In this document: positions 15,769 to 36,114 of the stretch, one piece after another
Layout: each line of letters opens with the position of its first letter
Numbering within the stretch: the stretch's first letter is position 1
Virus record (IMG/VR): IMGVR_UViG_3300036444_000037
Span: 1 to 36,114 of that record
Direction: 5' to 3' (one strand)
DNA: 36,114 nucleotides
From: a virus
Program-made: the position numbers and the translations under genes
The notes under the pieces: model-generated
What the model was told of the DNA's origin: nothing
The model's database searches: none
Seen by the model: only the letters and a program-made list of their open reading frames with translations

Positions 15769-16334
15769 CAGTGCATCTCCTTCGCGATTTCCTTGGCGGT
15801 CTGGGCGAACGCCTTGGGATCAAGCCCCATCATTTCGCAGACCACAGCCTCATCGGCGGCAAGCGTCCCATCGCCGGTTTCGACGGCCGGACGCTTGCCG
15901 AGGCCGCCACTGTTGAGCGACGGCATCAGCTTGATCTCCACCTCGACATCGGCCGGATCCTTGATGTGGCGTGCGATGTAGTGATCGCGAAGTGCCGGGA
16001 CGAGCTTGCCGTCCTCGATCGCCTTGTCGATCACGGTCTCGGCCCGATCCTTCGCATGCGTCGTGACGAGTGTGGTGACGCGCGAATTCAGCTGTTTCAC
16101 CTGTTCGCGCAATTCGGCTTTTTCGGCATCGTCGCCACTGGCGGCTCGCGCCTGCAGAGCAGTCACCACCTCCTCTCCAGTGGCTTCCTTCTTCAGGCCG
16201 GCCGCTTCAGCAACGCGCGACATGAGGTCGGCGGCGGCCGTCGAGGCGTTCAGCTTGGTCGTCAGGGCAGCAAGGATCGCCGCCTGGTCGGCGGTCTCGG
16301 GGAGCCCGAGCGCCTTCCTCAGTTCTTCATCCAT
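15768..16334 (-). CDS. Z: Scaffold protein, nested in-frame within the protease gene
   Basis: An internal start at ATG 16334 (residue 164 of the protease) is preceded by GGAG at 8 bases spacing. It would make a 188-aa protein MDEELRKALGLPE... that holds the helical scaffold half: a long alanine/leucine-rich coiled coil with AEKAELREQVKQLNSRVTTL. In Mu, gene Z is exactly such a nested in-frame product of I. The protease half ends just before this start (SLNHGDPE). Nested use is inferred from the ribosome site and the Mu precedent. Confidence 0.7.
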   Translation of the reverse strand: MDEELRKALGLPETADQAAILAALTTKLNASTAAADLMSRVAEAAGLKKEATGEEVVTALQARAASGDDAEKAELREQVKQLNSRVTTLVTTHAKDRAETVIDKAIEDGKLVPALRDHYIARHIKDPADVEVEIKLMPSLNSGGLGKRPAVETGDGTLAADEAVVCEMMGLDPKAFAQTAKEIAKEMH

Positions 16335-16823
16335 TTCTGGATCTCCATGGTTGAGGGAATGGTTGCGCGAATGGAGCGCGGTGAGTTTCAGGTTCGGATC
16401 GTTGGTCAGGCTGGCGCGCAGCAGCTGCACCAGCCGGTAAGGCTTGGCCGTCAGCGACGTGAACACGGGCGAGACGAAGCCGTACTCTTTGCCCGCGACG
16501 GCATGCCTGCCCTTTTCGGTCCATTCGACCTTGCCCCAGATCCCGTCCTCACGGGCTTCCAGCGCCACGATCCAGCCAACAGCGGGCGTCTCCTCGCCTT
16601 CGCTGGTCAGCAGGTCGATCGAATGGTTGATATCCATCGCCAGCTTGCGGCCGGCAGGCAGCGAAGCCGCGATGAGCTTTTGCGCATCGCCGAGCTCGTA
16701 CGGGCCGCGACCGTCAACGCCGCTGAAGGTGCCAGCCGGCAGCAGGTGAATGAACTCAGGCACCTCGCCAACGGCGGTGCCGGCGAGAAGGCTGTGCGTG
16801 ATGGAGTTGAGGACCGTTTTCAT
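15768..16823 (-). CDS. I: Head maturation protease with scaffold domain, Mu gpI
   Basis: A 351-aa phage protease of the Mu I type. Residues 1-150 hold the protease: LAMDINHSID (His candidate) and GKEYGFVSPVF (Ser candidate) with GIWGKVEWTEKG between them. These fit the conserved His and Ser of the family but cannot be proven here. Residues 164-351 are a scaffold-like helical domain. It starts 35 bases downstream of the late-block repeat copy B and is first in the head-building group protease-cement-capsid. The stop overlaps the cement gene start. Confidence 0.9.
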   Translation of the reverse strand: MKTVLNSITHSLLAGTAVGEVPEFIHLLPAGTFSGVDGRGPYELGDAQKLIAASLPAGRKLAMDINHSIDLLTSEGEETPAVGWIVALEAREDGIWGKVEWTEKGRHAVAGKEYGFVSPVFTSLTAKPYRLVQLLRASLTNDPNLKLTALHSRNHSLNHGDPEMDEELRKALGLPETADQAAILAALTTKLNASTAAADLMSRVAEAAGLKKEATGEEVVTALQARAASGDDAEKAELREQVKQLNSRVTTLVTTHAKDRAETVIDKAIEDGKLVPALRDHYIARHIKDPADVEVEIKLMPSLNSGGLGKRPAVETGDGTLAADEAVVCEMMGLDPKAFAQTAKEIAKEMH

Positions 16824-16842
16824 CGGGCAGACAATGGCCCGA

Positions 16843-16879
16843 CGCGCGCACTCGTATCATGCCCGCCACGGCGGGCATG
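16843..16879 (-). promoter_or_regulatory. Late-block repeat, copy B, upstream of the protease gene
   Basis: A perfect 10-bp inverted repeat CATGCCCGCC (16858-16867), AC, GGCGGGCATG (16870-16879), with ACTCGTAT and a CGCGCGC tract (16843-16849) on the side nearer the protease. Read toward the gene it gives GGCGGGCATGATACG, then the CG tract. It sits in the 68-base gap between gp31 and the protease gene, the place where Mu has its PI late promoter. It has no T run, so it is not a standard intrinsic terminator. Confidence 0.5.
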
Positions 16880-16891
16880 GATGAAGCGGCT

Positions 16892-17389
16892 CTATTGGAA
16901 GCGGCTGAGGAAGCGGAACACCGTGTCCGCGATCATCTCTTCGTCGTCGTCGGAGATGCCGAGATAGGGTCTCGCCGGAAGCGTAACAGACTTGGCCAGC
17001 ACTACGCCAGAGGCCAATCGGAAAACCAGATGTGAGGCGTTCTTCGGAACGATGGTGCCGCCGAGCTGGTGAATGCCGGCATAGATGACGTTGGTGCCGA
17101 CGCGCACATAGTCGTTGCCCGGCTGGCTGGAAATGCTGTCGCGAAGCCTGCCGCTCTCCGTCAGGATCCGGGCGTTGCGCTTCATCCGTTTGTATTCGGC
17201 GTTGAGTGCTGCCCATGCCTCGCCAGCGGGGCTGGTCTGCGAGATGAAACGCCGATGGGTGGACGACACCAGGCCGGTGCCGATCGCCGACATGATCGGT
17301 GTGGTGTTGCCCATCAGGCCGATCAGGCTCGTGAAAGCCTGGTCGACGCCATGGTCGGTAATCCGGGTTTCGAGGGTGACGCCGCTCAT
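16892..17389 (-). CDS. Virion morphogenesis protein, Mu gp31 (gpG)
   Basis: A 165-aa protein of the phage virion morphogenesis family (tail completion/S type). Marks are the N-terminal AFTSLIGLMGNTTPIMSAIG, the FISQTSPAGEAWAALNAEYKR stretch (slightly broken here), LTESGRLRDSI and YAGIHQLGG with the later PARPYLGISD. These are the classic motif set of the family. It joins the head module in Mu order gp30-gp31. The ATG overlaps the end of the small 35-aa ORF as ATGA. Confidence 0.9.
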   Translation of the reverse strand: MSGVTLETRITDHGVDQAFTSLIGLMGNTTPIMSAIGTGLVSSTHRRFISQTSPAGEAWAALNAEYKRMKRNARILTESGRLRDSISSQPGNDYVRVGTNVIYAGIHQLGGTIVPKNASHLVFRLASGVVLAKSVTLPARPYLGISDDDEEMIADTVFRFLSRFQ

Positions 17390-17493
17390 GCTTGCCTCAA
17401 ACCGCCTTCGCGCCTATATTTCGAATGCGCCGAGCAGGAAGCGGTCCTTCGGGACTTGGGTGGTATTTCCGGCCACTCCGGCGCATTTCTCAT
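17386..17493 (-). CDS. Small ORF (35 aa) bridging gp30 and gp31
   Basis: A 35-aa frame between the F-like head protein and gp31. Its ATG (17493-17491) overlaps the gp30 stop as ATGA, and its TGA (17388-17386) overlaps the gp31 start as ATGA. Such double coupling is the rule in this operon and is unlikely by chance. The product is basic, MRNAPEWPEIPPKSRRTASC then SAHSKYRREGGLRQA, with Pro near the start and one Cys. A GAGGGCAGGA stretch lies upstream. No family recognised; it might serve only to hand ribosomes on to gp31. Confidence 0.55.
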   Translation of the reverse strand: MRNAPEWPEIPPKSRRTASCSAHSKYRREGGLRQA

Positions 17494-18620
17494 TTTCCGG
17501 TCAGGATCCTGCCCTCGCGGCGAAGGCTCGCTATCTGGTTGGCGTTCGTGCGGCGTAGTGAAAGCAGGTAGATCTCGTCGCCCTGCGGACGATGCACGAC
17601 CTTGAGGGCAGCCGTGAACGGCTCACCGTCGATCGACGCATGCAGCTGCAGGCGGCCGTCACCACGTTCCACCAGTTCACCCTTCTCGACGAGCAGCTCG
17701 GGCGCGGTGGCGTAGAACGCTGGCGTCGCGTGGCGATGCTTCGTGTGTGACCTGATGGTGTCCGCCGACAGCCGTACCTCGCTACCGATCGCGACGTCGA
17801 GCGGGGCAGCCAACCGACGCGGCGTCAGGGCCACCGGCACCCAGCTCTTGCCAGGCCAACGGTCTTGAAGCGCGGTCGTGGCAAAGCGTTCGATCATGCC
17901 GGGCGCAGCGGCAACGGTCTCAGAACCCGGCAGGGTCCGTGACAGCCAGGCTTGCCCCGGATTGTACTCGAAGCCGGCATCCACGCCGAACGGCACCATG
18001 ACGCGCTTGCCGCCGACTTCTTCGGCACGGAACAGCAGATCCGGCGACGGATCGGGTCCACGCTTGCCCTGGCGCTTCAGGTCACGGCCGGAGACCGCCG
18101 TGGGGAAGCACCCGCAGTGCCAGCCATTCGGTGGATAGTTGGTGGCCCAGAAAGGATCATCGGCCCGCAGCACCATGCCATCCCAGGACAGGTGTTCCTT
18201 GCGAGGGTGAAGCGAACCCGAATGATTGTATTGCCAGTAAGGGAAAGCCTCCAGCGTGTCGGGCTCGGTGAGCTGGGCGTAGCGACCGGCAGCGTAGGCG
18301 GTGCGCAGATTGGTGTCGAAGATGATGCGCGATCGCCAGTTGCGGCCACCGGTATGGTCCCAGCCGTGCCGAGCAACGATGCTGTCAAAAGCACCGCGGA
18401 ACTCAGCTAACGTGGTTCCTTTTTCGAGCGCCTTCATGATCTCCTGGCGGAAGTCGCCCACCAGGGCATCGGTCGCGGCACCCGCCACCATGAAGGCGCG
18501 GGAATGGGCTGCCGCGTAGACATCCGTCCACGACCTGGTCGTCACCGATGCCTTGTCGCGGAAGAAGCGAATGGCGGCGTCGAAGGGCAGATCGAGCGCG
18601 GGGGTGATACCGTCAGCCAT
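17490..18620 (-). CDS. F: Minor head protein, Mu gp30 (gpF), with nuclease/toxin-like C-terminus
   Basis: A 376-aa minor head protein. Residues 1-175 are the Mu F / SPP1 gp7 type: LPFDAAIRFFRDK, FDTNLRTAYAAGRYAQ, the RKEHLSWDG segment and the NGWHCGCF motif with its Cys-His pair. From about 265 to 370 a second domain follows, with RLSADTIRSHTKHRHA and FTAALKVVHRPQGDEIYLLSL, which resembles the phage-Barnase-EndoU-ColicinE5/D-RelE-like (PBECR) nuclease group. The tail domain may enter the cell with the DNA or act on a competitor; this is not shown. It is preceded by a 123-base gap and overlaps the small ORF by ATGA. Confidence 0.87.
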   Translation of the reverse strand: MADGITPALDLPFDAAIRFFRDKASVTTRSWTDVYAAAHSRAFMVAGAATDALVGDFRQEIMKALEKGTTLAEFRGAFDSIVARHGWDHTGGRNWRSRIIFDTNLRTAYAAGRYAQLTEPDTLEAFPYWQYNHSGSLHPRKEHLSWDGMVLRADDPFWATNYPPNGWHCGCFPTAVSGRDLKRQGKRGPDPSPDLLFRAEEVGGKRVMVPFGVDAGFEYNPGQAWLSRTLPGSETVAAAPGMIERFATTALQDRWPGKSWVPVALTPRRLAAPLDVAIGSEVRLSADTIRSHTKHRHATPAFYATAPELLVEKGELVERGDGRLQLHASIDGEPFTAALKVVHRPQGDEIYLLSLRRTNANQIASLRREGRILTGK

Positions 18621-18641
18621 CGACAGCTTCCAGCCTCGAAA

Positions 18642-18681
18642 TTTGAGGGCCGCTCAAAGCCCGTGAGCGCGTTTTGAGGGC
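18642..18681. repeat. Short repeat with alternative hairpins between portal and gp30
   Basis: In the 123-base gap 18621-18743, TTTGAGGGC occurs at 18642-18650 and 18673-18681, with CTCAAA at 18653-18658 between. The central CTCAAA can pair with either TTTGAG, giving two exclusive 6-bp hairpins. No T tract follows. It is the only sizeable gap inside the packaging and head block, so a control element on gp30 expression is possible. Confidence 0.35.
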
Positions 18682-18743
18682 TTGGTGGCTATCTCGGGTC
18701 ATCCGAAGCGCCCAGCGCGTTCCTGGGCCGTTTCTGCGAGGGC

Positions 18744-20339
18744 TCATTTGCGACTACGCAACTCGTCCACCAGGGCGGCCTGACCGGCAAGATGCGAAAG
18801 CGCCATGCCTCTAGCCATGGCAACGGCCAAGGCCTCCGGCGCCAGGTCGAGCTTGGCCAGTTTCTCGGCGGCGTCGGATAGGTCGATCGCGTTCTCCAGG
18901 ATGTTGCGGATCTCGTCCGTGAGCCCGGTCATGGCCCCGGCCGCGTCATGCTCGATGCGCTGTGTGAGCTGCTCGACGATCGTGTCCGTCTCTTCCCTGG
19001 CGTGACGGGTGCGCAGCAGCGTTGCAACTGAATTGGTCTGGGGCTCGGTCGTTGTCGTGCTGGCGGCAGGCGCCCGCCCGCCGATCACCTCCTCATCATC
19101 CTTGGGTGCCGGAATGCCCAGGCGGGACCGTGCCCAACCCAAGGGCGCTGTCAGACCCTGTTTACCCAGCTTCTCGAAGGCCTCGGAGAACTCCTTCAAA
19201 GGCACTTCATCGGGCCTTCCAATCGAGACCGTTGGATAATGGTCCTGCGGCCCGAACTCGAAGGCGACCAGGTTCGGAATGACCTGGTGATTGTAGGTGC
19301 CGGACAGAGCGATCGCGTCGGATCGCTCAATGTCTTCCTGAACCAGGCGGTGTTCCTTGGCCACCGCGTGTCCACCTGAGACGGCGTCGGTGGTTGTGGT
19401 CTGGCCAAGTACAGCTTTCGAGATCTGGCGGTCCATCCAGTCGGCACGGCGTTCGAACAGCTCGGTGCTCGCGCTTTTCGCCGAAACCTCCTTGAACTCG
19501 ATGCTCATGTCGACAGGCACGATCGCCGCGCAGTCACCAGCGATCTGCGAAACGGCGCGCCACAGCACGTCCTTCTCGTCCTCTGTGGCGTTGCGGCCAT
19601 AGCGGCCGATGCGGATGGGAGCACCAAAATTCTGAACGAAGATCGCCCAGTCCTTCAGCGTGAACGCCTTGTACATCCATGCCCAGCTCGCCACGCGGGC
19701 AATGCCGGAGCGGATCGTCAGGCCGGATTTTGATTTATGCCGATGCACGACGAACTTGTGCTGTGGCAGCGGCTGGTCGCCGGCAGCCTCGCGCAGCAGT
19801 ACGGTTTCCCCATCATGGCGGTCGAACGTGAACCAGCGCTGCGGCCGATAGATGAATTCGCGCGGACAGGTGTGACCCATGTGATGGCGCCAGTCCGTCT
19901 CCAGCACCGAGAAACCCTTGCCGATGGCGTCGAGTGCGTCGAACAGCGATGCCTGCAGCGTGCCGTCATTCACCCACGACTGCACATATTCCGCGTGCTT
20001 CTTGTGATCGGCCGCGTCGGATGCTGCTGTCACCGTGATTGGCAGCTGCGAGACTGACCGCTTCCGCGTCGCCATGACACCGGCATAGTGAAGATCGCGC
20101 TCCTCGATGTCCTCGGCCAGCTCCAGATACCGCAGCGGTTCGCCGCCCGCTGCTTCTCGATGGATGGACGCCAGTCGTGTCGGCGTCAGGCCATCGGCCG
20201 GATGGCCGGAGATCGGGTCGCGAACGCCGATCGTGGTCGGACCGGCGCGCTCCTCTGTCACCTCGGCATCGGTCAGTTTGTTGCCGCTGGCGTCGACCAG
20301 GCGCTGGCCAACGGCACGCATCAGAGATTTGATGTTCAT
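18744..20339 (-). CDS. Portal protein, Mu gp29 (DUF935)
   Basis: A 531-aa portal of the DUF935 family, as Mu gp29 (gpH). Key segments: TPTRLASIHREAAGGEPLRYLELAEDIEERDLHYAGVMATRK-like N-terminus (shown here only as its landmarks TPTRLASIH and ERDLHYAGVM), FSVLETDWRHHMG, the GLTIRSGIARVASWAWMYK stretch, DWAIFVQNFGAPIRIGRY and ILG-type ALGQTTTTDAV. It forms the dodecamer at the DNA entry vertex. The ATG at 20339 overlaps the terminase stop as ATGA; the open frame upstream to 20465 lies in the terminase gene. Confidence 0.92.
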   Translation of the reverse strand: MNIKSLMRAVGQRLVDASGNKLTDAEVTEERAGPTTIGVRDPISGHPADGLTPTRLASIHREAAGGEPLRYLELAEDIEERDLHYAGVMATRKRSVSQLPITVTAASDAADHKKHAEYVQSWVNDGTLQASLFDALDAIGKGFSVLETDWRHHMGHTCPREFIYRPQRWFTFDRHDGETVLLREAAGDQPLPQHKFVVHRHKSKSGLTIRSGIARVASWAWMYKAFTLKDWAIFVQNFGAPIRIGRYGRNATEDEKDVLWRAVSQIAGDCAAIVPVDMSIEFKEVSAKSASTELFERRADWMDRQISKAVLGQTTTTDAVSGGHAVAKEHRLVQEDIERSDAIALSGTYNHQVIPNLVAFEFGPQDHYPTVSIGRPDEVPLKEFSEAFEKLGKQGLTAPLGWARSRLGIPAPKDDEEVIGGRAPAASTTTTEPQTNSVATLLRTRHAREETDTIVEQLTQRIEHDAAGAMTGLTDEIRNILENAIDLSDAAEKLAKLDLAPEALAVAMARGMALSHLAGQAALVDELRSRK

Positions 20340-21994
20340 AGGCGGCCTCGCATTTCTACATCGGTGGAACGTTCGCGCCGGTCCCTGTCGCCTCGATTGC
20401 TCCCCGAACCAGCGCCAGCACTCTCGTAGCCATAGGAAAGGGTCATCTGCAGCGAAGCGAACCAAGCGAGGATGCCAGCGATCGCCGTGTCGCCGTGCCG
20501 ATCCAGCCCATCCTCGCCCTTGTGGCGATGATCATCGGGAACCTTGATGATGCCGTTGACATACTGCAGCGCCTGGTGATCGCGGATCACGTCCTCGTCG
20601 GCCGCGATCGTGACTGTGAGATCGCCGAACGCCTCGACGTAGCGCGGAGAGTTCTCCCGATACCACTCGGGGGTGAGCTTCACCTCGACGATGCACTCGC
20701 CCCACCGCTGGGCTGCAACTTCAGCTAGGTAGCCGCCATTGCCAGTTGCATCGAGCGCACCACCGGAGAGGCGCGGCAGATGATCGCCCACGAAGAAGAG
20801 GACGTCGCGTTGCGCCTCGTACGGCACGTTGCGCAGCTCCAGGACGAGGCGGCAGCGGCGCACCGTGTCCTGGCCGATCTCATAGCCCTTGAACGCCGAG
20901 ACGTCGCCGGAGCGCGCGAAGTCCATGCCGAAGACGTGGGCACGGTCGGGATCGAGCTTGTCCAGGATCGGCTTGAGCTTCTCTCGGCAGAAGTCACGGA
21001 TGACCGCTTCACGCATGCCCTTGTCGAGCGACTTGAAGCTGTCGGGCAGATGCAGGCGCACTACCGGAACGGTCGCATCCTTCACCCGCTCGATGACGAC
21101 GCGGGTCAACGCCGCGCCCTGCGCATCGGCGGGTATCGCGTCCAGCTCCTGCTGCATCTGGGCTTCGCGCGCACCATAGGAACCACGGATCAGCTGCTCC
21201 CATTTCGCCTGGGCTTCTGGGCTGTAGGTCCATCCACGGGTCAGGCAGACACGTTGGTAGAGACCGTTGTCGACGGCGGCCTGGAATGGAATGTGATGGA
21301 TCTTGAACGGGTTCTTCCCGGCTCGCGCCTCGCGGATCAGCTCGTTGAAGGCGTTCAGCACACCGTTGTGGGTGGAGATCACGCGAACCTTGCCGCCCCA
21401 GATCAGCAGCGCGTTGACGGCATCGATGACAGCGCGCACGTCGCGGTGATAGGCTGCTTCGTCGATAACGACGATACCCTGCAGGCCGCGAATGTTCGCG
21501 GGGTTCGAGGACAGTGCCTCGACGCGAAAGCCCGAGGCAAAGCGAACGCGATAGGCGGAAATGAACTTGGTCGAGCCGTCCGACTGCTCGTCCTCGAACA
21601 TAAACTCCTCGATATCTACCAGCTCCCTCGCCACGATCTTGGCGAAGTGGGCGACATAGCCAATGAACTCGCGGCCTTTATCCTTGGTGTCACCGATATA
21701 GAAAACGTTGTCGCCGCCATCACCGCGCGCACTGGCCGCGATGATGGTGTCGTCCAGCGCCTCGGCATAGGTGATGCCCGTCCGGCGACCCTTCTCCGCA
21801 ACCTTCAGGTCGGAGCGGTCTTCCAGCCACTCCTTCTGATGCAGCATCAGAATGCCGTCGGCCAACGGGTCGTGGTCGGCAGGCAGCTCGGAGCCGCGCG
21901 GAAGTCCGGCCGGAAGCTGCTCGGGATTGCGAGAGAGGACGGGCTTGGCCGCATCCTCTCCCTTCACGAAGTCCCTGGCTGCCGCCGCCGTCAT
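20336..21994 (-). CDS. Terminase large subunit, Mu gp28
   Basis: A 552-aa packaging motor. A Walker A-like loop, EKGRRTGIT (residues 67-75), a Walker B, IVVIDEA (174-180), and nuclease residues in FGMDFARSGD (Asp 358, Asp 364) and in ALDATGNGG (Asp 416) are visible. Mu-type phages fill heads with headful packaging from host-flanked ends; this enzyme cuts and pumps DNA. It overlaps the small subunit stop as ATGA and the portal start. Length is normal for Mu gp28. Confidence 0.93.
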   Translation of the reverse strand: MTAAAARDFVKGEDAAKPVLSRNPEQLPAGLPRGSELPADHDPLADGILMLHQKEWLEDRSDLKVAEKGRRTGITYAEALDDTIIAASARGDGGDNVFYIGDTKDKGREFIGYVAHFAKIVARELVDIEEFMFEDEQSDGSTKFISAYRVRFASGFRVEALSSNPANIRGLQGIVVIDEAAYHRDVRAVIDAVNALLIWGGKVRVISTHNGVLNAFNELIREARAGKNPFKIHHIPFQAAVDNGLYQRVCLTRGWTYSPEAQAKWEQLIRGSYGAREAQMQQELDAIPADAQGAALTRVVIERVKDATVPVVRLHLPDSFKSLDKGMREAVIRDFCREKLKPILDKLDPDRAHVFGMDFARSGDVSAFKGYEIGQDTVRRCRLVLELRNVPYEAQRDVLFFVGDHLPRLSGGALDATGNGGYLAEVAAQRWGECIVEVKLTPEWYRENSPRYVEAFGDLTVTIAADEDVIRDHQALQYVNGIIKVPDDHRHKGEDGLDRHGDTAIAGILAWFASLQMTLSYGYESAGAGSGSNRGDRDRRERSTDVEMRGRL

Positions 21995-22578
21995 GATCGG
22001 AGCCCCAGGACCTGCTTACGGATCTCGGCGGCACGTTCCTGCGAGAGGCCAGCGACCTTGGCGACGGTATCGACGGTCTCCTCAACCTTTTCGGCAAACT
22101 CCTGCTCCACCTTCAGGCGACGGGCGGTGGAAATGCCCTCTGCCTGGGCGGCGGCTCGCAATGCGTTGGCTAGGCTCATCGCCTCTTTAGGCTGGATGTT
22201 CTTCGAGCCACGGCTGGCAATGATGTTCGTCACCAGAGACTTGATCGCCATCGCGCCCATTCGGGCAAGATCGTCTTCGCCCTCGGCGTCGAAGCGCGAG
22301 GCAATGGCCTTGGTCATCTCGCGGGCCTGTTCGATCTCTGCAGCAAAGACGGCCAGGCGCATCGAATACCGGTTGAACGCCTGAAAAGACGGAATGGTGA
22401 ACTCCAGCTCACCATGATGCTCGGCCTGAAGCGCTTCGAGCTTGGCGAAGAATTCCTTGTAGATATCGGTCTGGGTCCGATCACTGTTCTGAAGCTCCTG
22501 GGCAGCCCATGCGACAATGCCCTCGCACTCCCGAGGCAGAAGCTGGATGTTCGACAGGCGTCCGCGACCGCGTGCCAT
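21991..22578 (-). CDS. Terminase small subunit, Mu gp27 (DUF3486)
   Basis: A 195-aa DUF3486 protein. The basic start MARGRGRLSNIQLLP, then ECEGIVAWAAQELQNSDRTQTDIYKEF and IPSFQAFNRYSMRLA, are the family signature; the C-terminal half is a helical coiled coil ending with GLSQERAAEIRKQVLG. It is thought to recognise DNA for packaging. A gap of 2 bases separates it from the preceding winged-helix-like gene. Confidence 0.9.
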   Translation of the reverse strand: MARGRGRLSNIQLLPRECEGIVAWAAQELQNSDRTQTDIYKEFFAKLEALQAEHHGELEFTIPSFQAFNRYSMRLAVFAAEIEQAREMTKAIASRFDAEGEDDLARMGAMAIKSLVTNIIASRGSKNIQPKEAMSLANALRAAAQAEGISTARRLKVEQEFAEKVEETVDTVAKVAGLSQERAAEIRKQVLGLRS

Positions 22579-22580
22579 GA

Positions 22581-22895
22581 TCAGATCTCCGGCTTGAGCG
22601 GGCGCTTCACACCTTCAATCGCGATCTCGCGACGCAAATGGCGCCGGCCGAGTTCGGTCAGCGTCGCGCCCATGACAGTTCCAGCAGCCGTCGCGATGAC
22701 GGCACCCAGCTCTTCGAGATACTTCAGCTCGCCATGCACCCAGGCGCGCGGCCTGCGAATGCCGAACGGCACCAGGCGCACTTCGATGACATCGGACGGC
22801 AGCGTCTCGTCCGTTTCCTCGGCCAGCATCTTCAGCATGGCGAGGCGCGCGCTCTCGCGAAAAATCCGGTCTGCGGCTTCACGATCGAAAGTCAT
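22581..22895 (-). CDS. Small winged-helix-like phage protein, Mu gp26 position
   Basis: A 104-aa protein whose C-terminal 60 residues (HGELKYLEELGAVIATAAG then GATLTELGRRHLRRE) read like a short winged-helix, and databases often call such proteins ArsR-like in Mu-like phages. No metal-binding motif is visible. It sits between DUF2730 and the small terminase subunit, the Mu gp26 position. It starts with an ATGA overlap with the DUF2730 gene. A DNA-binding role is inference. Confidence 0.7.
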   Translation of the reverse strand: MTFDREAADRIFRESARLAMLKMLAEETDETLPSDVIEVRLVPFGIRRPRAWVHGELKYLEELGAVIATAAGTVMGATLTELGRRHLRREIAIEGVKRPLKPEI

Positions 22896-23254
22896 TTCTT
22901 TGCTTGCTCCAGAATGAGTTCCTGCCAGCGATCGGCAATCGCCGACACCGGTTCGAGCTGGGTGGCGAGGACTTCGATGCGGCCGTTGAGTTTCTCCAGG
23001 GCAAGCTCGATATTGTGCGCCTGGTTGCGATCCGGGAGGTGCCGTAGCTCGCCTTCCAGGGACAGAACGCGCCGCTCCATATCGGCCATTGCAGCGGCCG
23101 TTTTCCTGGCGTCTTCCGCCGCGTCCTCTTTGTGTTTGTCGAGGGCGGCGGCCACAGTCTTTTCACCTCTGGTGAGCCACCCATAGATGATGCCGACGAG
23201 AGCGATCAGGCTGAGCGCCAGAGACACCCACGGCGCGATTGTTTCAGGGGTCAA
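22892..23254 (-). CDS. DUF2730 membrane-anchored coiled-coil protein (TTG start)
   Basis: A 120-aa DUF2730 protein. Residues 1-28 carry one transmembrane helix (APWVSLALSLIALVGIIYGW), followed by a long coiled coil (DMERRVLSLEGELRHL). It is probably anchored in the inner membrane and may act in lysis, as a spanin-like or holin-regulating partner; this is inferred from position only. The start is a TTG at 23254 with GGAGG 5 bases upstream and a TTGA overlap with the preceding stop. The ATG of the longer frame, at 23302, lies inside the TraR-type gene and lacks such a site. Confidence 0.78.
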   Translation of the reverse strand: MTPETIAPWVSLALSLIALVGIIYGWLTRGEKTVAAALDKHKEDAAEDARKTAAAMADMERRVLSLEGELRHLPDRNQAHNIELALEKLNGRIEVLATQLEPVSAIADRWQELILEQAKK

Positions 23255-23475
23255 TTGCGCCTCCGCTTGAAACGTTCGAGGCGCTGCTGGCAAGCCAGGC
23301 ACCGCTTTGCTGATGGAAGCGCCAGGCGCCGTTCGGGCTCGATCTCTTCACTGCAGACAAGGCAAACTGGTGATCCTTGACCGGCAAGCGCGGCCTGGGC
23401 TGCGCGGATGCCGGTCTCACGTTCCTGCTCGGTGCGAAGGTCGGCCAGTTCGTAGGCGAAATTTCCGAGCTTCAC
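23251..23475 (-). CDS. TraR/DksA-type C4 zinc finger protein (GTG start)
   Basis: A 74-aa protein with CLVC (Cys 38 and 41) and CLAC (Cys 59 and 62), the four-cysteine zinc finger of the TraR/DksA family. The N-terminus is helical. TraR binds RNA polymerase in the secondary channel and alters transcription; phage copies could favour phage promoters. The GTG at 23475 gives a GTGA overlap with the holin stop; an ATG at 23493 is the alternative. It lies in the lysis region of Mu-like phages of this type. The finger is complete. Confidence 0.82.
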   Translation of the reverse strand: MKLGNFAYELADLRTEQERETGIRAAQAALAGQGSPVCLVCSEEIEPERRLALPSAKRCLACQQRLERFKRRRN

Positions 23476-24002
23476 TGTGGGCGCCCCAACCATTTCGCCA
23501 GGCCGTCCTTCAACGTATGGCCGCCCATGTAGAAGCCGGAGAATGTCGCGGTAAGCCAGAACAGCGTGTCGAACGGCAAGGCAGTCGCCATGGACGAGCC
23601 GGTACCGGCATCGACGGTCGGCACGATGACGAAGCGGAACAGCCATAAGCCGCCGAGGAACCACATCCAGGCCGGCCGCCATGCCCACGTCCAGGTAGGC
23701 TCTCCAACCTTGTCCATCTCGGCCTTCTGCAGCGCGATTGCCTGGGCCTGCTGGACGTTCCATTGAATGAGCAGATCCGGCGCTAGGCTCTCGGTCTCTT
23801 TGATCGCCGCGTCGATCTTCTCGGGCGGCTGCTCGGCGATCTCGTCCGGCTGAACGCCGAGCTTCTTCGCGACGGTGTCGATCACGACGCCACCGACCTC
23901 GGCTGCATCGTCGCCGAGGAAGCGCTCCAGGAGCGACTTGACCAGCGGCGCCCCGACACGCGTTGCGGCTTCGACAAGGATTGATCCAAGCACCGGGTCC
24001 AT
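23472..24002 (-). CDS. Holin-like protein (3TM-holin type)
   Basis: A 176-aa protein resembling 3TM-type holins. The N-terminal half is soluble with an amphipathic, alanine-rich helix (residues 1-30) and a region ending PPEKIDAAIKE. Two hydrophobic segments lie at about 109-130 (AWRPAWMWFLGGLWLFRF) and 141-161. The WxWAWRPAWMW motif is characteristic of this family. It overlaps the endolysin stop (TGATG), which supports a lysis role. How many helices cross the membrane cannot be told from the sequence. Confidence 0.8.
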   Translation of the reverse strand: MDPVLGSILVEAATRVGAPLVKSLLERFLGDDAAEVGGVVIDTVAKKLGVQPDEIAEQPPEKIDAAIKETESLAPDLLIQWNVQQAQAIALQKAEMDKVGEPTWTWAWRPAWMWFLGGLWLFRFVIVPTVDAGTGSSMATALPFDTLFWLTATFSGFYMGGHTLKDGLAKWLGRPQ

Positions 24003-24754
24003 CAGATCACCCCCAAGCCTTCGGCCTCGGCGGCGTACGCGGCGGCGCGCTGGCGATGAACGATGCTGCGGGTGATCAACATGATCGCGACGATCGCGCC
24101 CACGGCCAGGAGACCGCCTATCAACCAGCCGGCCAACTGGTCGGCATGGTGCGGGTTCACCAGCACGTCGCCGCCGCCACCGGCAGTGGCAGCCCCTGCC
24201 GTACCGCCGCTGGTCTGGGCAGTCTTCGCGCTCTTGGTTGCCGCCTGTTGCTCATCGGCAAGCTTGGCCTTGACGGTCGCGGCCGGCGCCGAGGCAGCAA
24301 GTGCCCAGGCGACCCCCTTGGCTTCGATCGCCGCGATACGCTTGCCCCAGCCGCGACCAAAGGTTTTCCAGATCTTGAGCGACTGGACGAAGCCGAGCCG
24401 CTTCGCGCAGAGCCGTTTCACTGTCTGGTGTGCCGGTCCACCGACCGACGCCTTGAGCCAGGATCTCGCGCGACCGACGCCAGAATTGACCGAAGCGTCG
24501 AAAGTGGCGAGATCCACGCCAGCCTCAAGACTGTCGCCATTCACCGCTTGCCAGTAATCCTGGCGGTAGATCTTGGCGACGTTGTCAGCCGAAATATTGC
24601 GGAGCTGGAGCTTGGTGGCGCTGGGGAAGTAGCGCCGATAAGTGGCAAGGGTGATCCCCTTCATGGTGGCGCCGCCCGGATCCTTCGGATGATCCGACCA
24701 GCCGCCCTCATAGGCGAGCGTCACTTTCAGGCTCGCGTTGAAATTCTCGCGCAT
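24002..24754 (-). CDS. Endolysin, GH108 family, with C-terminal membrane helix
   Basis: A 250-aa muramidase. Residues 1-140 match GH108 with EGGW (Glu 16 the likely catalytic acid), HPKDPGGATMKGIT and the VDLATFDASVNSG segment, and then the peptidoglycan-binding type end GPAHQTVKRL. A Thr/Ala/Gly linker (about 160-200) leads to one transmembrane helix at 208-229, followed by a basic tail. No N-terminal signal is seen. The C-terminal anchor is unusual for GH108 lysins of this size; it might tether the enzyme until the holin opens. ATG at 24754 has GGAG 8 bases upstream. The gene starts a late transcript below copy A of the repeat. Confidence 0.88.
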   Translation of the reverse strand: MRENFNASLKVTLAYEGGWSDHPKDPGGATMKGITLATYRRYFPSATKLQLRNISADNVAKIYRQDYWQAVNGDSLEAGVDLATFDASVNSGVGRARSWLKASVGGPAHQTVKRLCAKRLGFVQSLKIWKTFGRGWGKRIAAIEAKGVAWALAASAPAATVKAKLADEQQAATKSAKTAQTSGGTAGAATAGGGGDVLVNPHHADQLAGWLIGGLLAVGAIVAIMLITRSIVHRQRAAAYAAEAEGLGVI

Positions 24755-24779
24755 CGATACCGCTCCGGGCTGCAGAAAG

Positions 24780-24797
24780 GCCGGGCGATCACCCGGC
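24780..24797 (-). other. Leader hairpin upstream of the endolysin
   Basis: GCCGGG (24780-24785) pairs with CCCGGC (24792-24797) through a 6-base loop. On the minus strand CTTTCTG follows, a weak terminator look. It lies in the 105-base leader before the endolysin, so it may be an attenuator or a ribosome-site modulator. CATAAT (minus strand, 24802-24807 region) just upstream could be a -10 hexamer. Confidence 0.35.
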
Positions 24798-24823
24798 GAT
24801 TATGCCTGCAGCATGCGTGCGGT

Positions 24824-24858
24824 CGCGCGCGCGTATCATGCCTCCCTAGGCGGGCATG
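24824..24858 (-). promoter_or_regulatory. Late-block repeat, copy A, upstream of the endolysin
   Basis: A CGCGCGCGCG tract (24824-24833), TAT, then CATGCCTCCC, TA, GGCGGGCATG (24837-24858); the left arm has two mismatches to its partner. Its layout (CG tract, GTATCATG, 22-bp near-palindrome, 2-bp spacer) equals copy B. It begins 1 base past the Mor stop and 83 bases upstream of the endolysin start, where Mu has Plys. A Mor-controlled late promoter is the leading guess. Confidence 0.5.
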
Positions 24859-24859
24859 G

Positions 24860-25231
24860 TCAGTCGTCGAAGAGGAAGAGCTGTCGTGGATCCGCAGAGC
24901 CTTTGGCGGGCCGGGTGCCCATTCTGCGGAACATCTTGTCGATGCCGGTTTCGGTCAGCCCGAGCTTGCGGGCGATTTCGGCATTCGACATTCCAGTGGC
25001 GCGATAGTGGCGCGCCCGAGCCTCTCGCGCAAGAGGCACGCGGAGATAAGACCGGCCGTAGCGGCCGGCGAGTTGGTCGACGGCCACACGGCCGAGGATC
25101 GGTAGGAGCTGGTTCTCACGATCGGTTGAGGGAATGAAGAGCCGCGTTCCGCCGAACGCTTCCGCCAGGGCGAGGAATGCTGGCTCGCCGAGCAGGTTCT
25201 GCAGTTCCGTGGAAAGGCGGTCTTCGCTCAC
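24860..25231 (-). CDS. mor: Mor-type transcriptional activator
   Basis: A 123-aa Mor/C family activator. The dimerisation half has LSTELQNLLGEPAFLALAEAFGGTRLFIP (broken here), typical of the family; the C-terminal helix-turn-helix is MSNAEIARKLGLTETGIDKM (residues 81-100). Mor switches Mu from early to late expression; here one Mor-like gene sits next to the late operon and may do both middle and late activation. The GTG at 25231 has AGGTGG 4 bases upstream and is chosen over the ATG at 25339, which lies inside the opposite-strand gene. It lies 69 bases from the start of the exported protein, facing it divergently. Confidence 0.85.
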   Translation of the reverse strand: MSEDRLSTELQNLLGEPAFLALAEAFGGTRLFIPSTDRENQLLPILGRVAVDQLAGRYGRSYLRVPLAREARARHYRATGMSNAEIARKLGLTETGIDKMFRRMGTRPAKGSADPRQLFLFDD

Positions 25232-25243
25232 GCTGCCACCTGC

Positions 25244-25272
25244 TTGTGACGAAGGTCGTGTCGCGCTACGGT
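25244..25272 (+). promoter_or_regulatory. Possible promoter of the exported moron gene
   Basis: TTGTGA (25244-25249), 17 bases, and TACGGT (25267-25272) form a weak sigma-70-like pair just upstream of the plus-strand gene's ribosome site (GAGGAG at 25285-25290). The match is 4 of 6 and 3 of 6, so it is a suggestion only. An own promoter would be expected for a moron gene. Confidence 0.3.
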
Positions 25273-25299
25273 CGAAGAAGGCTTGAGGAGATTTTGACC

Positions 25300-25752
25300 A
25301 TGACGGTTCGTATTTGTTTGGCGATCGTGGCGGCCACATCGCTGGTCTCGCTCGCCGCAGCCGCTGAAATTGAAGAGACCAATATCATCGACGTGCTTGC
25401 TGCAGCACCGATCTATGATCCCGCAGCCGCAGAGACTTTCAAGCCGACCGAGGTGCTTACATCTCCATGCACCATCATATCCGCCAGCCTGACAAGCGCC
25501 CGGTGTGTTGTCCGTCAGAACAAAAAAACCATCGAGTACGTCGACCTCGAATTTGGTTCTTGGAGTGGTGACAAATGGCAGGACACACTCGACGCTGAAA
25601 CCAGGGCGGCTCTGGTCAAGCAGTGCAACGGCTACGAACCTACCGATAGCTGCAGCAGAAGGCTTCGCGGCTTCGCCTACCGGGCCGGACGTACAATGGG
25701 CAACCAAGTAGGCAACAACTTTCGTGTCTACAATATCTTGCCCGACCGCTGA
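25300..25752 (+). CDS. Exported protein of unknown function (moron)
   Basis: A 150-aa protein on the strand opposite to all neighbours. Residues 1-22 form a signal peptide (VRICLAIVAATSLVSLAAAA), cleaved near AAA-AEIEE. Four cysteines (SPC, ARC, KQC, DSC) in the mature part could make two disulfides in the periplasm. No known family recognised. GAGGAG lies 9 bases upstream of the ATG at 25300. Base use is less GC-rich than the rest. It sits between the early genes and mor, as a cargo gene inserted in a phage backbone. A lysogenic conversion or superinfection exclusion role is speculation. Confidence 0.75.
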   Translation: MTVRICLAIVAATSLVSLAAAAEIEETNIIDVLAAAPIYDPAAAETFKPTEVLTSPCTIISASLTSARCVVRQNKKTIEYVDLEFGSWSGDKWQDTLDAETRAALVKQCNGYEPTDSCSRRLRGFAYRAGRTMGNQVGNNFRVYNILPDR

Positions 25753-25757
25753 CCAAA

Positions 25758-25979
25758 TCATGCCAAGCCCCGCTCGATCGCCGCTTGCAGCTCCAACTGG
25801 CGGGCTGTGACCATGCGGAGGCGGAACTCCAGCTCCAGGCGCTTGTGGCTGTGCGGACGCAGAACGGCGATACGCGCGCGCAGTTCGCTCCGCTGCGCCT
25901 GCAGACGGTCGATCTCCAACTGCTCGTTCCAGACGAGCAGCGGCAGGGACTTCTCCTGGACTGAGCGCCGCACCATCAT
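25758..25979 (-). CDS. Small coiled-coil protein, end of early operon
   Basis: A 73-aa protein that is largely a single charged helix (LEIDRLQAQRSELRARIAVL and LELEFRLRMVTARQLELQAA). No family recognised. ATG at 25979 overlaps the upstream stop as TGATG and has GGAG 8 bases before it; a GTG at 25982 is possible. It ends 5 bases from the converging moron stop. It is the last gene of the early block before the opposite-strand gene. Confidence 0.6.
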   Translation of the reverse strand: MMVRRSVQEKSLPLLVWNEQLEIDRLQAQRSELRARIAVLRPHSHKRLELEFRLRMVTARQLELQAAIERGLA

Positions 25980-26218
25980 CACTGGCGCTCCAACCGCAAA
26001 CCGCGCTTGGTGCTGTTGAGCGTCAGGCCGTCAACCGATTTCCAGATCAGGCAAAGCGTATAGGTGCCGTCTTTGCGACGATGCAGGGATGAGGCCTTGG
26101 ACAAAGTCCAGCGAACCCCGACTTTCGCCAGCGGTGACTGGCCCAATTCGCTGGCCGCAAAACGCTCGATCACCGAGAAATCGATCTTCACGCGGCCGGT
26201 TCGGCGACGGGTGCTCAT
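25979..26218 (-). CDS. Small basic early protein, unknown function
   Basis: A 79-aa basic protein. The N-terminus (MSTRRRTGRVKIDFSVIERF) is Arg-rich, and the middle has a likely beta pair, GTYTLCLIW and VDGLTLN, ending in RGLRLERQ. Not recognised. It is coupled to its neighbours by ATGA at its start and TGATG at its end. DNA or RNA binding is possible from charge, but this is inference. Confidence 0.55.
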   Translation of the reverse strand: MSTRRRTGRVKIDFSVIERFAASELGQSPLAKVGVRWTLSKASSLHRRKDGTYTLCLIWKSVDGLTLNSTKRGLRLERQ

Positions 26219-26574
26219 TGGCGATCTCCGTCGATCAACTGCGCAGCCAGATACCTGTCACGCAGTGTGGCCGGCCGCACCTCCCCCTCGCGACCGAGGT
26301 CAGGCCACCATTCGTCATCACCCAATAGCCAGAGGTGGCGCATGGCGATGTTGTTCACGACACGATCGGCTGGCGGATAGACCTCAATGGTAACTGCCAC
26401 GCCGCCTGCGAGATTGTTCTTGATCGCCTGCAGCTCGTCCCAGGTGATGCTGCCGTCGTGCTCGACCGAAAGCAGGCAGAGATCCCAATCGAGATAGACG
26501 CGACTGGCGGCGGTCCATTCTTCTGGCCAGCCGGCATCCGCACGGGTGATTATTGGGCGGCTGCGGCTGGTCAT
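26215..26574 (-). CDS. Early phage protein, DUF7694-like
   Basis: A 119-aa protein with the pattern SITWDELQAIKNNLAGG, VTIEVYPPADRVVNN and MRHLWLLGDDEWWPDLGR, which looks like the small DUF7694-type proteins often seen in phages. The function of that group is unknown. Translation is coupled to GemA upstream by ATGA. The family assignment is from memory of the motif and should be treated as tentative. Confidence 0.55.
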   Translation of the reverse strand: MTSRSRPIITRADAGWPEEWTAASRVYLDWDLCLLSVEHDGSITWDELQAIKNNLAGGVAVTIEVYPPADRVVNNIAMRHLWLLGDDEWWPDLGREGEVRPATLRDRYLAAQLIDGDRQ

Positions 26575-27200
26575 TTTCGCACCGCCTGCCTGACCCGATC
26601 GCCAAGCGCGTTCATTACCGGCACCCAGTCGCCTTCATCCATCTGGTCGACTGGCTTGGCAACCTCGGCAACGAATGCACGAAAGGTCTGAAAGCTGGGA
26701 GCTTCCACGCTTTTGGCGATAAGGATGTTCCACTGCGCCACTGCGATCTGTGCGCCCGGCACCTTCATCCAGTCAGGCGTGATGATCGTGATGCTCCAAT
26801 CGACACTGGCCTGTCTGGCCATCCAGCCTTTCAGACCTTCGATCGCCTTCACGGCATCGCCGGCATCGTGGAGAAATCGTACGTGCGACAGGCCGGTCTG
26901 GCGCTCCACAAACGCAATCAGGGCTGCGTCATCGCGTTCCCGAACAATGCCGAGGTTCCATGCGGCGATCCAAAGCGCCTGCAGCTTCTTCGCGAACTTC
27001 CCCTCAAGCTGCTTTCGAGCCCCGCTCGAAGCGGGTTTGAACCCGCTGCGACGCAGTTCCTGGACAACGTCGTTCTGCTCGGCCGAGGACATATCCCGCA
27101 GCGAGCGTTTGCCAGTTACGCGATGGTAGACATCGCGCATCGCGTCGTCATCGAGCCCAAGCTGTTTCTTGGCGACATGGATTGCTGCGGTGGCGCTCAT
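26571..27200 (-). CDS. gemA: GemA-like regulatory protein (DUF1018, Mu gp16)
   Basis: A 209-aa protein of the GemA/DUF1018 family. The N-terminus AIHVAKKQLGLDDDAMRDVYHRVTGKRSLRDMS (broken here) and KLQALWIAAWNLGIVRERDD, followed by AFVERQTGLSHVRFLHDAGD, are the family signature. In Mu, GemA alters host DNA supercoiling and gene expression. The C-terminal 70 residues (ITIITPDWMKVPGAQIAV and on) are longer than in Mu. It overlaps both neighbours as ATGA. Confidence 0.85.
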   Translation of the reverse strand: MSATAAIHVAKKQLGLDDDAMRDVYHRVTGKRSLRDMSSAEQNDVVQELRRSGFKPASSGARKQLEGKFAKKLQALWIAAWNLGIVRERDDAALIAFVERQTGLSHVRFLHDAGDAVKAIEGLKGWMARQASVDWSITIITPDWMKVPGAQIAVAQWNILIAKSVEAPSFQTFRAFVAEVAKPVDQMDEGDWVPVMNALGDRVRQAVRK

Positions 27201-35065: not shown

Positions 35066-35355
35066 CAAGCGGCCTTCCGCTGAGCAGCGGGCTTATCCGC
35101 GGTGCTTTTGGATATGAGGTGGGGGTCCAGGATGCGGTTGCGTGTTTTCGGATAGCGATCCGCGAAGAGGATCTCGACCCGCACACCGATGAAGTCCGCG
35201 ATGGCGCGCTCGGCTTTCTCGTTGGGGCGCGTCCAGATATTCTTGACTCCGGAGAGCGGTAGCCCGTACCGCTTGGAGATGCCTTCCAGCGTCATTTTTT
35301 CACGGCGCATGAAGGCAAGGATCGAGTGACGATCCCATTCTTGGGATTTTGTCAT
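35065..35355 (-). CDS. ner: Ner-like transcriptional regulator
   Basis: A 96-aa protein of the Ner/Nlp family. The core HSILAFMRREKMTLEGISKR, then YGLPLSGVKNIWTRPNEKAE and RAIADFIGVRVEILFADRYP, is the family signature, including its HTH. Ner dampens the early promoter and the repressor promoter in Mu. ATG 35355 has GAGGAG 5 bases upstream; the open frame to 35502 reaches into the operator region and is not used. It is first in the early operon. The leader has a GC-rich hairpin. Confidence 0.88.
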   Translation of the reverse strand: MTKSQEWDRHSILAFMRREKMTLEGISKRYGLPLSGVKNIWTRPNEKAERAIADFIGVRVEILFADRYPKTRNRILDPHLISKSTADKPAAQRKAA

Positions 35356-35371
35356 CAGGGTCTCCTCGATC

Positions 35372-35400
35372 GGCGGATGTTGGCGCATCCGCCTTTTGTT
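35372..35400 (+). terminator. Plus-strand terminator / ner leader hairpin
   Basis: GGCGGATG (35372-35379) pairs with CATCCGCC (35386-35393), loop TTGGCG, followed by TTTTGTT. On the plus strand it is an intrinsic terminator in front of the repressor region. On the minus strand it is a hairpin in the ner leader, about 10 bases before the ribosome site. Confidence 0.6.
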
Positions 35401-35459
35401 GGTGGTTGGTTGTGCAATAGTCGCCTGATGTTTCCGGCGACGAAGGTAGGGGTAGCAAT

Positions 35460-35504
35460 AAGTTGCCACATCGTCAATCGCGAATTGGCAACTTCTTGCC
35501 ACAT
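35460..35504. promoter_or_regulatory. Operator with 9-bp inverted repeat between repressor and ner
   Basis: AAGTTGCCA (35460-35468) and TGGCAACTT (35486-35494) are a perfect inverted repeat, 17 bases apart. TTGCCACAT also recurs directly at 35463-35471 and 35496-35504, 33 bases apart, close to three helix turns. The second copy overlaps the repressor start region. TTGACG on the minus strand (35477-35472) might be a -35 for the ner operon. This fits an operator shared by repressor and Ner. Confidence 0.65.
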
Positions 35505-35511
35505 GATGCTG

Positions 35512-36114
35512 ATGTCTGAATTTTCTGAACGTATCCGCGACGTTGCCGAGGAAGTTGGCGGCTTGCAGCGCTTAGCCGAATTGATCGATGTGCCGAGACG
35601 GACGCTTGGTTCTTGGCTGCAGGGCAGGAAACCCAAACCGGATGCAATCCAGAAGATTGCAGCGGCCGGGGAGGTGAACCTTGAATGGTTGATTGCCGGC
35701 GTTGGCGAGAAATTCACCAACGAAAAACGGGATCGCATCGCCGAGAAACAGCGCCAGGAGCACGAATTCTTGGTTGATTTGAGCCGGGGCGTTCAGGCGG
35801 TAGAGCAACACAGGCGAGAGAACGATCCACTTTATGACATGGATGTCCGATCGCGCGCGCCACTGGTTGACGTGGCGTTGCTTGAGCGGATGGCGCGCGT
35901 GGTGGAAGAAGTGCACAAAGACGCAGGTATTAGGATAGCACCTGCAAAAATCTCGGCCGAAGCTGGTGCGCTCTACAACGAGCTGTTGGCCAGACTATTA
36001 AATCCGGCCGATACGGAAGAGGTCGAAGCGGTCCTACCTCAACTCCGCCATTTCCTAAAAAAGCGCCTGGAGCAAGCAGCTGCCGAACCCGGTACCGGCA
36101 AACGCTCGGCCTGA
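35512..36114 (+). CDS. XRE-type phage repressor
   Basis: A 200-aa repressor facing the early operon. The XRE HTH covers residues about 14-45 (GGLQRLAELIDVPRRTLGSW), followed by AIQKIAAAGEVNLEWLIAGV. The C-terminal half is helical and has no S24/LexA peptidase motif, so SOS cleavage is not expected; Mu-like repressors are controlled by Clp proteases instead. The start is uncertain: ATGs at 35503, 35506 and 35512 follow the operator with no good ribosome site, so a leaderless message is possible. The ORF track frame further upstream is through the operator. The window ends at its stop codon. Confidence 0.85.
   Translation: MSEFSERIRDVAEEVGGLQRLAELIDVPRRTLGSWLQGRKPKPDAIQKIAAAGEVNLEWLIAGVGEKFTNEKRDRIAEKQRQEHEFLVDLSRGVQAVEQHRRENDPLYDMDVRSRAPLVDVALLERMARVVEEVHKDAGIRIAPAKISAEAGALYNELLARLLNPADTEEVEAVLPQLRHFLKKRLEQAAAEPGTGKRSA

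Follow-up and report, generated by a model that had tools for sequence, protein, structure and literature searches.

How can a temperate phage keep a gene written backward inside its early operon and still have that operon read through to its end? The question is raised by the virus record IMGVR_UViG_3300036444_000037, a Mu-like phage whose whole 36,114 bases are the window of this analysis. In it, an open reading frame (ORF) that we call P0001 (25300-25752, plus strand; 150 residues, an orphan) lies antisense to the early operon, beside the start of mor, the gene of a late transcription activator. The answer that we propose comes from two families of antisense genes found in the early operons of Mu-like phages. 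Both hardly use TTA, CTA and TCA, the codons whose complement reads as a stop on the opposite (early) strand. The early strand is thus open across most of these genes in the frame aligned with their codons, which we call the shadow frame, and in many cases this frame is joined to the early genes on both sides. We consider it probable, though far from certain, that P0001 encodes an exported accessory protein in a Mu-like swap slot, and that the shadows of such genes act as a translation bridge.

The slot is defined by comparison among relatives. Over 15888-25233, a stretch that ends where mor starts, the sister phage L002 has 83.6% identity to the window; beyond it the two diverge, and they are similar again from 26796, within gemA. 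Its cargo is a different antisense gene, which encodes an exported protein of 105 residues and belongs to our family A (phrog_27886, function unassigned; 10 of 12 aligned members match). In a third phage, L021, the slot holds an antisense ORF for a membrane-anchored protein of 59 residues (P0004). Since the sister phage carries another exported antisense gene at this place, we regard the slot as a place where exported accessory genes are swapped. Family A genes were found antisense between gemA and mor in 15/80 viral loci selected with GemA (the best 80 of 394). As in morons, an extra gene stands here between genes that are adjacent in relatives, its identity differing in L002, and P0001 deviates from its surroundings in guanine-cytosine (GC) content, both overall and at third positions. 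Judged from these comparisons, there is good support for the exchange of an exported accessory gene at one constant place, antisense to the early operon. The preliminary description of P0001 had called it a moron-like exported gene, a view backed by the swap in the sister phage and by the recurrence of family A. The family A protein of L002 (L002:9612-9926) has two invariant cysteines and a predicted four-helix fold (mean predicted local distance difference test, pLDDT, 88.8), and searches of PDB and viral structures with this fold gave no match at an expectation value (E) of 0.001.

The second family, family B, lies antisense upstream of gemA in 18/80 loci, and more members came from a later profile collection. 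Its proteins have 212 to 277 residues and share the hydrophobic core QTLITG..AV.AA..TV; nine members searched against Pfam and PHROG gave best E values of 0.018 and 0.068, respectively. Note that the nine seed proteins were chosen by eye for similar sequence, eight of them from a listing that also displayed the stop count and one from a list of ORFs. In this listing real antisense genes stand side by side with the shadows of sense genes; it served only for noticing the family. The later members were gathered by profile with the stop count ignored; P0001 and P0004 are not among these profile-derived sequences. Sinorhizobium phage Aussie (L019) carries two family B genes. Diverged tandem copies of family B occur in this phage and in L077, L095, L125 and L144, which suggests duplication or a paired function. 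In L032, L047, L064, L086 and L091 the two families share one early operon, with B upstream and A downstream of gemA.

Codon avoidance was measured against a null in which the synonymous codons were redrawn, locus by locus, from the usage of that locus's own long ORFs. A gene was counted in the slot when a GemA profile matched on the opposite strand within 2.5 kilobases. The distinct sequences (39 of family B in the slot, 16 of family A in the slot and 18 of family A elsewhere) were clustered by single linkage at 70% identity and 60% coverage, and the first member represented each cluster. Across the 38 family B clusters beside gemA we observed 2 codon-aligned complementary stops versus 77.5 expected, and the complement was open in 36 of them versus 6.3 expected. 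The other two registers held 336 stops (261 expected) and 405 stops (456 expected). Counted codon by codon, TTA, CTA and TCA together appeared 2 times versus 77.3 expected, whereas the 11 other A-ending codons stood at 1.06 to 3.0 times expectation; this deficit is therefore not a GC effect. The two exceptions each contain just one codon that closes the frame, located at codons 6 and 10, a region in which the start may have been misassigned. In family A, the 13 early-operon clusters, all between gemA and mor except that of L100, which is upstream of gemA, had 0 codon-aligned complementary stops versus 12.3 expected. All 13 were open (5.2 expected), and their other registers held 40 stops versus 32 expected and 60 versus 66 expected.

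Family A genes located elsewhere went the opposite way: their eight clusters had 24 complementary stops versus 10.4 expected, and only 1/8 was open. Several of these genes lie antisense among tail genes: in L006:7645-7968 the gene is antisense between the tape measure gene and a tail protein gene, and in L011:7961-8281 it has the same setting with one more plus-strand gene between; both complements are closed. Since these genes are antisense too, antisense position by itself is insufficient for an open complement. The late operons of many phages are shielded by antitermination, which could be a reason for the contrast between open and closed complements. No such protection is known for the early operons of Mu-like phages.

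We then considered how the shadows connect to their neighbours. The shadow of P0001, named P0003 (25228-25761, minus strand, 177 codons), stays open over the whole distance between the upstream early gene's stop and the mor start, and has no PHROG or Pfam match. Its start overlaps the stop of the early gene at 25758-25982 in an ATGA (25758-25761, minus strand), and its stop overlaps the GTG start of mor in a GTGA (25228-25231, minus strand). The openness of P0003 alone says little, because the codon-aligned frames opposite long ORFs of the window phage were open over 534 nucleotides in 28/82 chunks. In the slot genes first examined, P0001 and P0004 included, the codon-aligned complement was open in 14/14, its 3' end overlapped the next start in 14/14, and in 12/14 its 5' end lay on, or immediately behind, the preceding early ORF's stop. 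In the remaining two, L032 and L064, the shadow forms the C-terminal extension of a DNA methyltransferase (L032:5845-6747 and L064:5842-6759), and this extension of about 110 residues has no PHROG match at E 0.001.

An automated recount, which accepted overlap or abutment and in which the 5' joint of L032 and L064 belongs to the methyltransferase portion of the fusion, found both ends joined in 13/13 family A clusters of the early operon as well as in P0001 and P0004, and in 0/8 family A clusters elsewhere. In family B, 34/38 clusters were joined at the 3' end and 21/38 at both ends. As a background rate, joints at both ends were counted in 484 of 7196 open frames with lengths of 100-330 codons, a set that includes true genes. 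In four phages a single forward frame, with a stop-to-stop length of 498-625 codons, covers a tandem pair of antisense family B genes without interruption (L077:3388-4980, L144:5788-7404, L095:3376-5016 and L125:5983-7422). Taken from the sequence, the overlaps with the neighbours suggest that the genes flanking the slot are co-transcribed.

Which strand codes can be read from close pairs. Sorted by antisense codon position 1, 2 and 3, substitutions numbered 4, 4, 32 and 9, 4, 33 in two family A pairs, and 13, 5, 22 and 68, 41, 99 in two family B pairs. Because the changes concentrate on antisense third positions, the antisense strand is the coding strand in both families. Moreover, the similarity of the forward frames beyond that imposed by the antisense protein was small, with a mean z of 0.3 over 248 family B pairs and of 0.39 over 94 family A pairs, the pairs being non-independent. 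Protein-level constraint on both frames at once was not found in families A and B. Openness is kept, and the forward peptide is mostly free, with little or no constraint.

The ORF in the window, at 25300-25752 on the plus strand, looks like a real gene. As the preliminary description had it, P0001 has its own ribosome site, a Shine-Dalgarno-like GAGGAG seen in the sequence at 25285-25290 (plus strand), 9 nucleotides 5' of the ATG. It also has a signal-peptide-like N-terminus of 22 residues (25300-25365, plus strand), with the cleavage site placed by eye between MTVRICLAIVAATSLVSLAAAA and EIEE. The four cysteines reported before are correct for the mature part (C57, C69, C109 and C118); the total is five, since C6 lies in the signal peptide. 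The less GC-rich codons were confirmed as well: the gene has a GC content of 0.556 versus 0.628 for the window, and a third-position GC of 0.63 versus 0.66-0.83 in 20 hand-chosen phage ORFs. A six-frame codon score trained on the usage of these 20 ORFs ranked P0001 best over this stretch (0.016 per codon), followed by the codon-aligned complement (-0.132). In a check on chunks drawn from the training genes themselves, the score chose the true frame in 36/36. Separate scoring with the gene caller gave 0.098 per codon for P0001 and -0.065 for the complement. Note that the automatic caller misses some genes, such as a 573-residue ORF at 18744-20465, and does not list P0001 either: with their longest starts, P0001 and the mor ORF (24860-25339) overlap, and the caller retained the latter. 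A single-sequence fold of P0001 was uninformative (mean pLDDT 41.8).

Searches for relatives of P0001 were negative. It gave no match in Pfam, PHROGs, NCBIfam or PADLOC, no homologue by tblastn in phages and plasmids or in the fetched relative loci (best E 5.7 in the latter), and nothing significant among PDB sequences (best E 0.073). Exact-peptide scans of viral-contig and genome-contig collections, which used few peptides and reach close relatives only, found no match. Profiles of families A and B did not match it; as a candidate member of family A it was rejected, with no match to phrog_27886 and an hhalign probability of 2%. Because no homologue with a conserved frame was found in the collections searched, the function of the protein lacks comparative support, and such an absence had been named in the preliminary description as counting against its proposal. 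By analogy with other exported prophage accessory proteins, the likely job of P0001 is a surface change or the exclusion of other phages. We infer that it is exported and may serve in lysogenic conversion, as suggested before; for superinfection exclusion it is the position of the gene that would speak. The earlier observation is thus partly confirmed and its interpretation partly supported.

We propose the following mechanism. Backward genes that settle in the early operon would be kept free of TTA, CTA and TCA, which would leave the early messenger RNA (mRNA) open in the codon-aligned frame, in most cases from one early gene's stop codon to the start codon of its successor. Ribosomes that translate the early mRNA could then cross the antisense gene within this open frame, and their crossing would shield the mRNA from Rho-dependent polarity, pass ribosomes on to mor or gemA, or both. 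The avoidance of stops in the two families and the joints are seen in the sequences themselves; we infer the translation of the shadow, and Rho or coupling as the cause of the avoidance. As a general rule, a codon ban on backward accessory genes in a Rho-exposed early operon, whose complement would be an "anti-polarity" bridge selected for readability and not for its peptide, seems to us an even bet.

Several results weigh against this proposal. P0001 itself has 0 complementary stops versus 1.1 expected and was open by chance in about 31% of the redraws (a figure that supersedes a cruder first estimate of 40%), so it is not significant alone, and since its shadow would often be open by chance, the case for the window rests on the comparison families. 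P0001 is also an orphan whose coding strand was judged on codon statistics and the signal peptide alone, and the gene caller leaves it out. A consensus scan of 24750-26250, limited to sigma-70-type sites and simple hairpin terminators, found neither a promoter-like nor a terminator-like site on the plus strand; the possible promoter of the preliminary description was not recovered. In family B the 5' joint is present in 22/38 clusters only. Enrichment of the remaining A-ending codons is uneven in family A, with values from 0.33 to 3.2 times expectation. Single pairs reach z values of 3.1 and 3.3, which leaves room for some constraint on the forward frame. Finally, complements are open outside the slot as defined: in the family B gene of L129 (1/1 cluster, with no gemA match in the fetched stretch) and in the family A gene of Paracoccus phage Pthi1, which is antisense beside the tape measure gene. 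The lone late-region antisense gene of Rhodobacter phage RC1 is also without TTA, CTA and TCA.

Could P0001 simply be an exported accessory gene of the ordinary kind, its complement being open merely through GC-rich codon bias? The three codons are rare in the window phage, and with an open-complement chance near 0.31 this may be enough for P0001 taken by itself. As a general account it is rather unlikely, since the deficits of both families persist with locus-specific usage (2 versus 77.5 and 0 versus 12.3), family B is enriched in the other A-ending codons, and family A elsewhere goes the opposite way. The reverse assignment, in which P0003 is the sole gene and the plus-strand ORF its shadow, draws on the openness of P0003 and its joints at both ends, on the orphan status of P0001, and on the fact that codon-aligned frames opposite long ORFs of this phage are open over 534 nucleotides in 28/82 chunks. 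We find it very improbable: the codon score and third-position GC favour P0001, P0001 has a signal peptide and a ribosome site, P0003 matches nothing, and the substitution pattern in families A and B places coding on the antisense strand.

Another possibility is dual coding, with the forward frames being real second proteins that overlap the antisense genes, as in antiparallel overlapping pairs. Open frames that overlap their neighbours resemble ordinary operon genes, a few pairs exceed a z of 3, and in the Mu-like Pseudomonas phage Fc02 overlapping genes occur on both strands with exclusion activity reported for both (PMC9936078). We nevertheless judge dual coding to be quite unlikely here. 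The mean forward-frame similarity is hardly above that expected from the antisense protein, 8/10 forward frames tested lacked a PHROG match at E 0.001, and the other two (L032 and L064) match a DNA methyltransferase, the best match ending at residues 188 and 196, close to residues 184 and 195, at which the stretch facing the antisense gene begins. Plus-strand transcription might instead reduce the expression of mor, either by collision or through pairing of antisense RNA, after the model of a noncontiguous operon; collision had been proposed in the preliminary description. The position of P0001 fits, and collision with RNase III processing is described for a noncontiguous operon of Staphylococcus aureus (PMC7154746). 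This is rather unlikely, however: the consensus scan gave no plus-strand promoter, and the family B arrangement sits upstream of gemA and not directly before mor, so control of mor would not account for both arrangements. What the comparison of phages favours instead is that they keep the way into mor or gemA readable: the strand read in that direction is free of stops and joined to its neighbours across such genes.

The surroundings of the slot are those of a Mu-like phage. On the minus strand the order is gemA, three small early genes, the slot, mor and the endolysin gene. The gemA-like early gene occupies 26571-27200, and the upstream neighbour of the slot (25758-25982) encodes 74 residues with no PHROG match. 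The mor-like late transcription activator (24860-25231) matches phrog_836 with an E of 4e-20, obtained with the longer ORF; with the Pfam Mor model the E was 0.021, under the cut-off, and a second search missed this model. The endolysin gene (24002-24754; phrog_315, E 4.9e-46) adjoins mor on the far side. P0001 lies between mor and the last of the small early genes, antisense to the way into mor, as had been stated. The claim that it is the only plus-strand gene inside the phage body is fair: of the gene caller's plus-strand calls, 19239-19379 and 19737-20057 are weak and lie opposite the 573-residue minus-strand ORF at 18744-20465, and the third is an ORF at the end of the window (35326-36114). 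At megablast sensitivity, the single DNA match in the phage collection was Sinorhizobium phage Aussie (72.7% identity over 4% of an 18-kilobase query, in transposase A), and a scan of genome contigs based on mor found no match.

If the proposal is correct, it would explain how backward genes can stand inside an essential operon of temperate phages without cutting that operon. It would also give a signature for finding such genes, three missing codons together with NTGA overlaps. Long forward ORFs at such places may be annotated as proteins although openness alone is maintained, and the extent to which translation shields phage mRNA from Rho would become testable at natural loci. In the open-access literature that we searched, not exhaustively, we met no description of codon avoidance in favour of a translated bridge; a paper from 2026 ties the avoidance of Rho to the composition of the coding strand (PMC13323073).

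How does this arrangement compare with known systems? Like the morons described in PMC4378225, P0001 is a single gene of deviating composition between adjacent phage genes, and the place is swapped among relatives; it differs in that our scan found no promoter or terminator and in being antisense with an open complement. The protein of phrog_27886 is likewise small, exported and located in the same slot of the sister phage, but P0001 has no match to it. As in antiparallel overlapping bacterial genes (PMC7457138), both strands are open over one stretch, although in families A and B one side is under little or no protein-level constraint. Fc02, a B3-like transposable phage, has the forward ORFs olg1 and olg2, transcribed in the lysogen opposite gene 10 of the early operon, and superinfection exclusion is reported for olg1 and gene 10 (PMC9936078). 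Its gene 10, however, is a functional protein beside ner, whereas the slots described here adjoin gemA and mor and their opposite frame is little constrained. A parallel in layout is the noncontiguous operon, exemplified by menE-menC-MW1733-ytkD-MW1731 of S. aureus and said to occur in phages too (PMC7154746): as there, an oppositely transcribed gene stands between co-oriented operon genes. What distinguishes the slot is that across the backward gene the operon strand has an open frame with joints to the genes on either side, and that the antisense genes of the comparison families avoid the codons that would close it.
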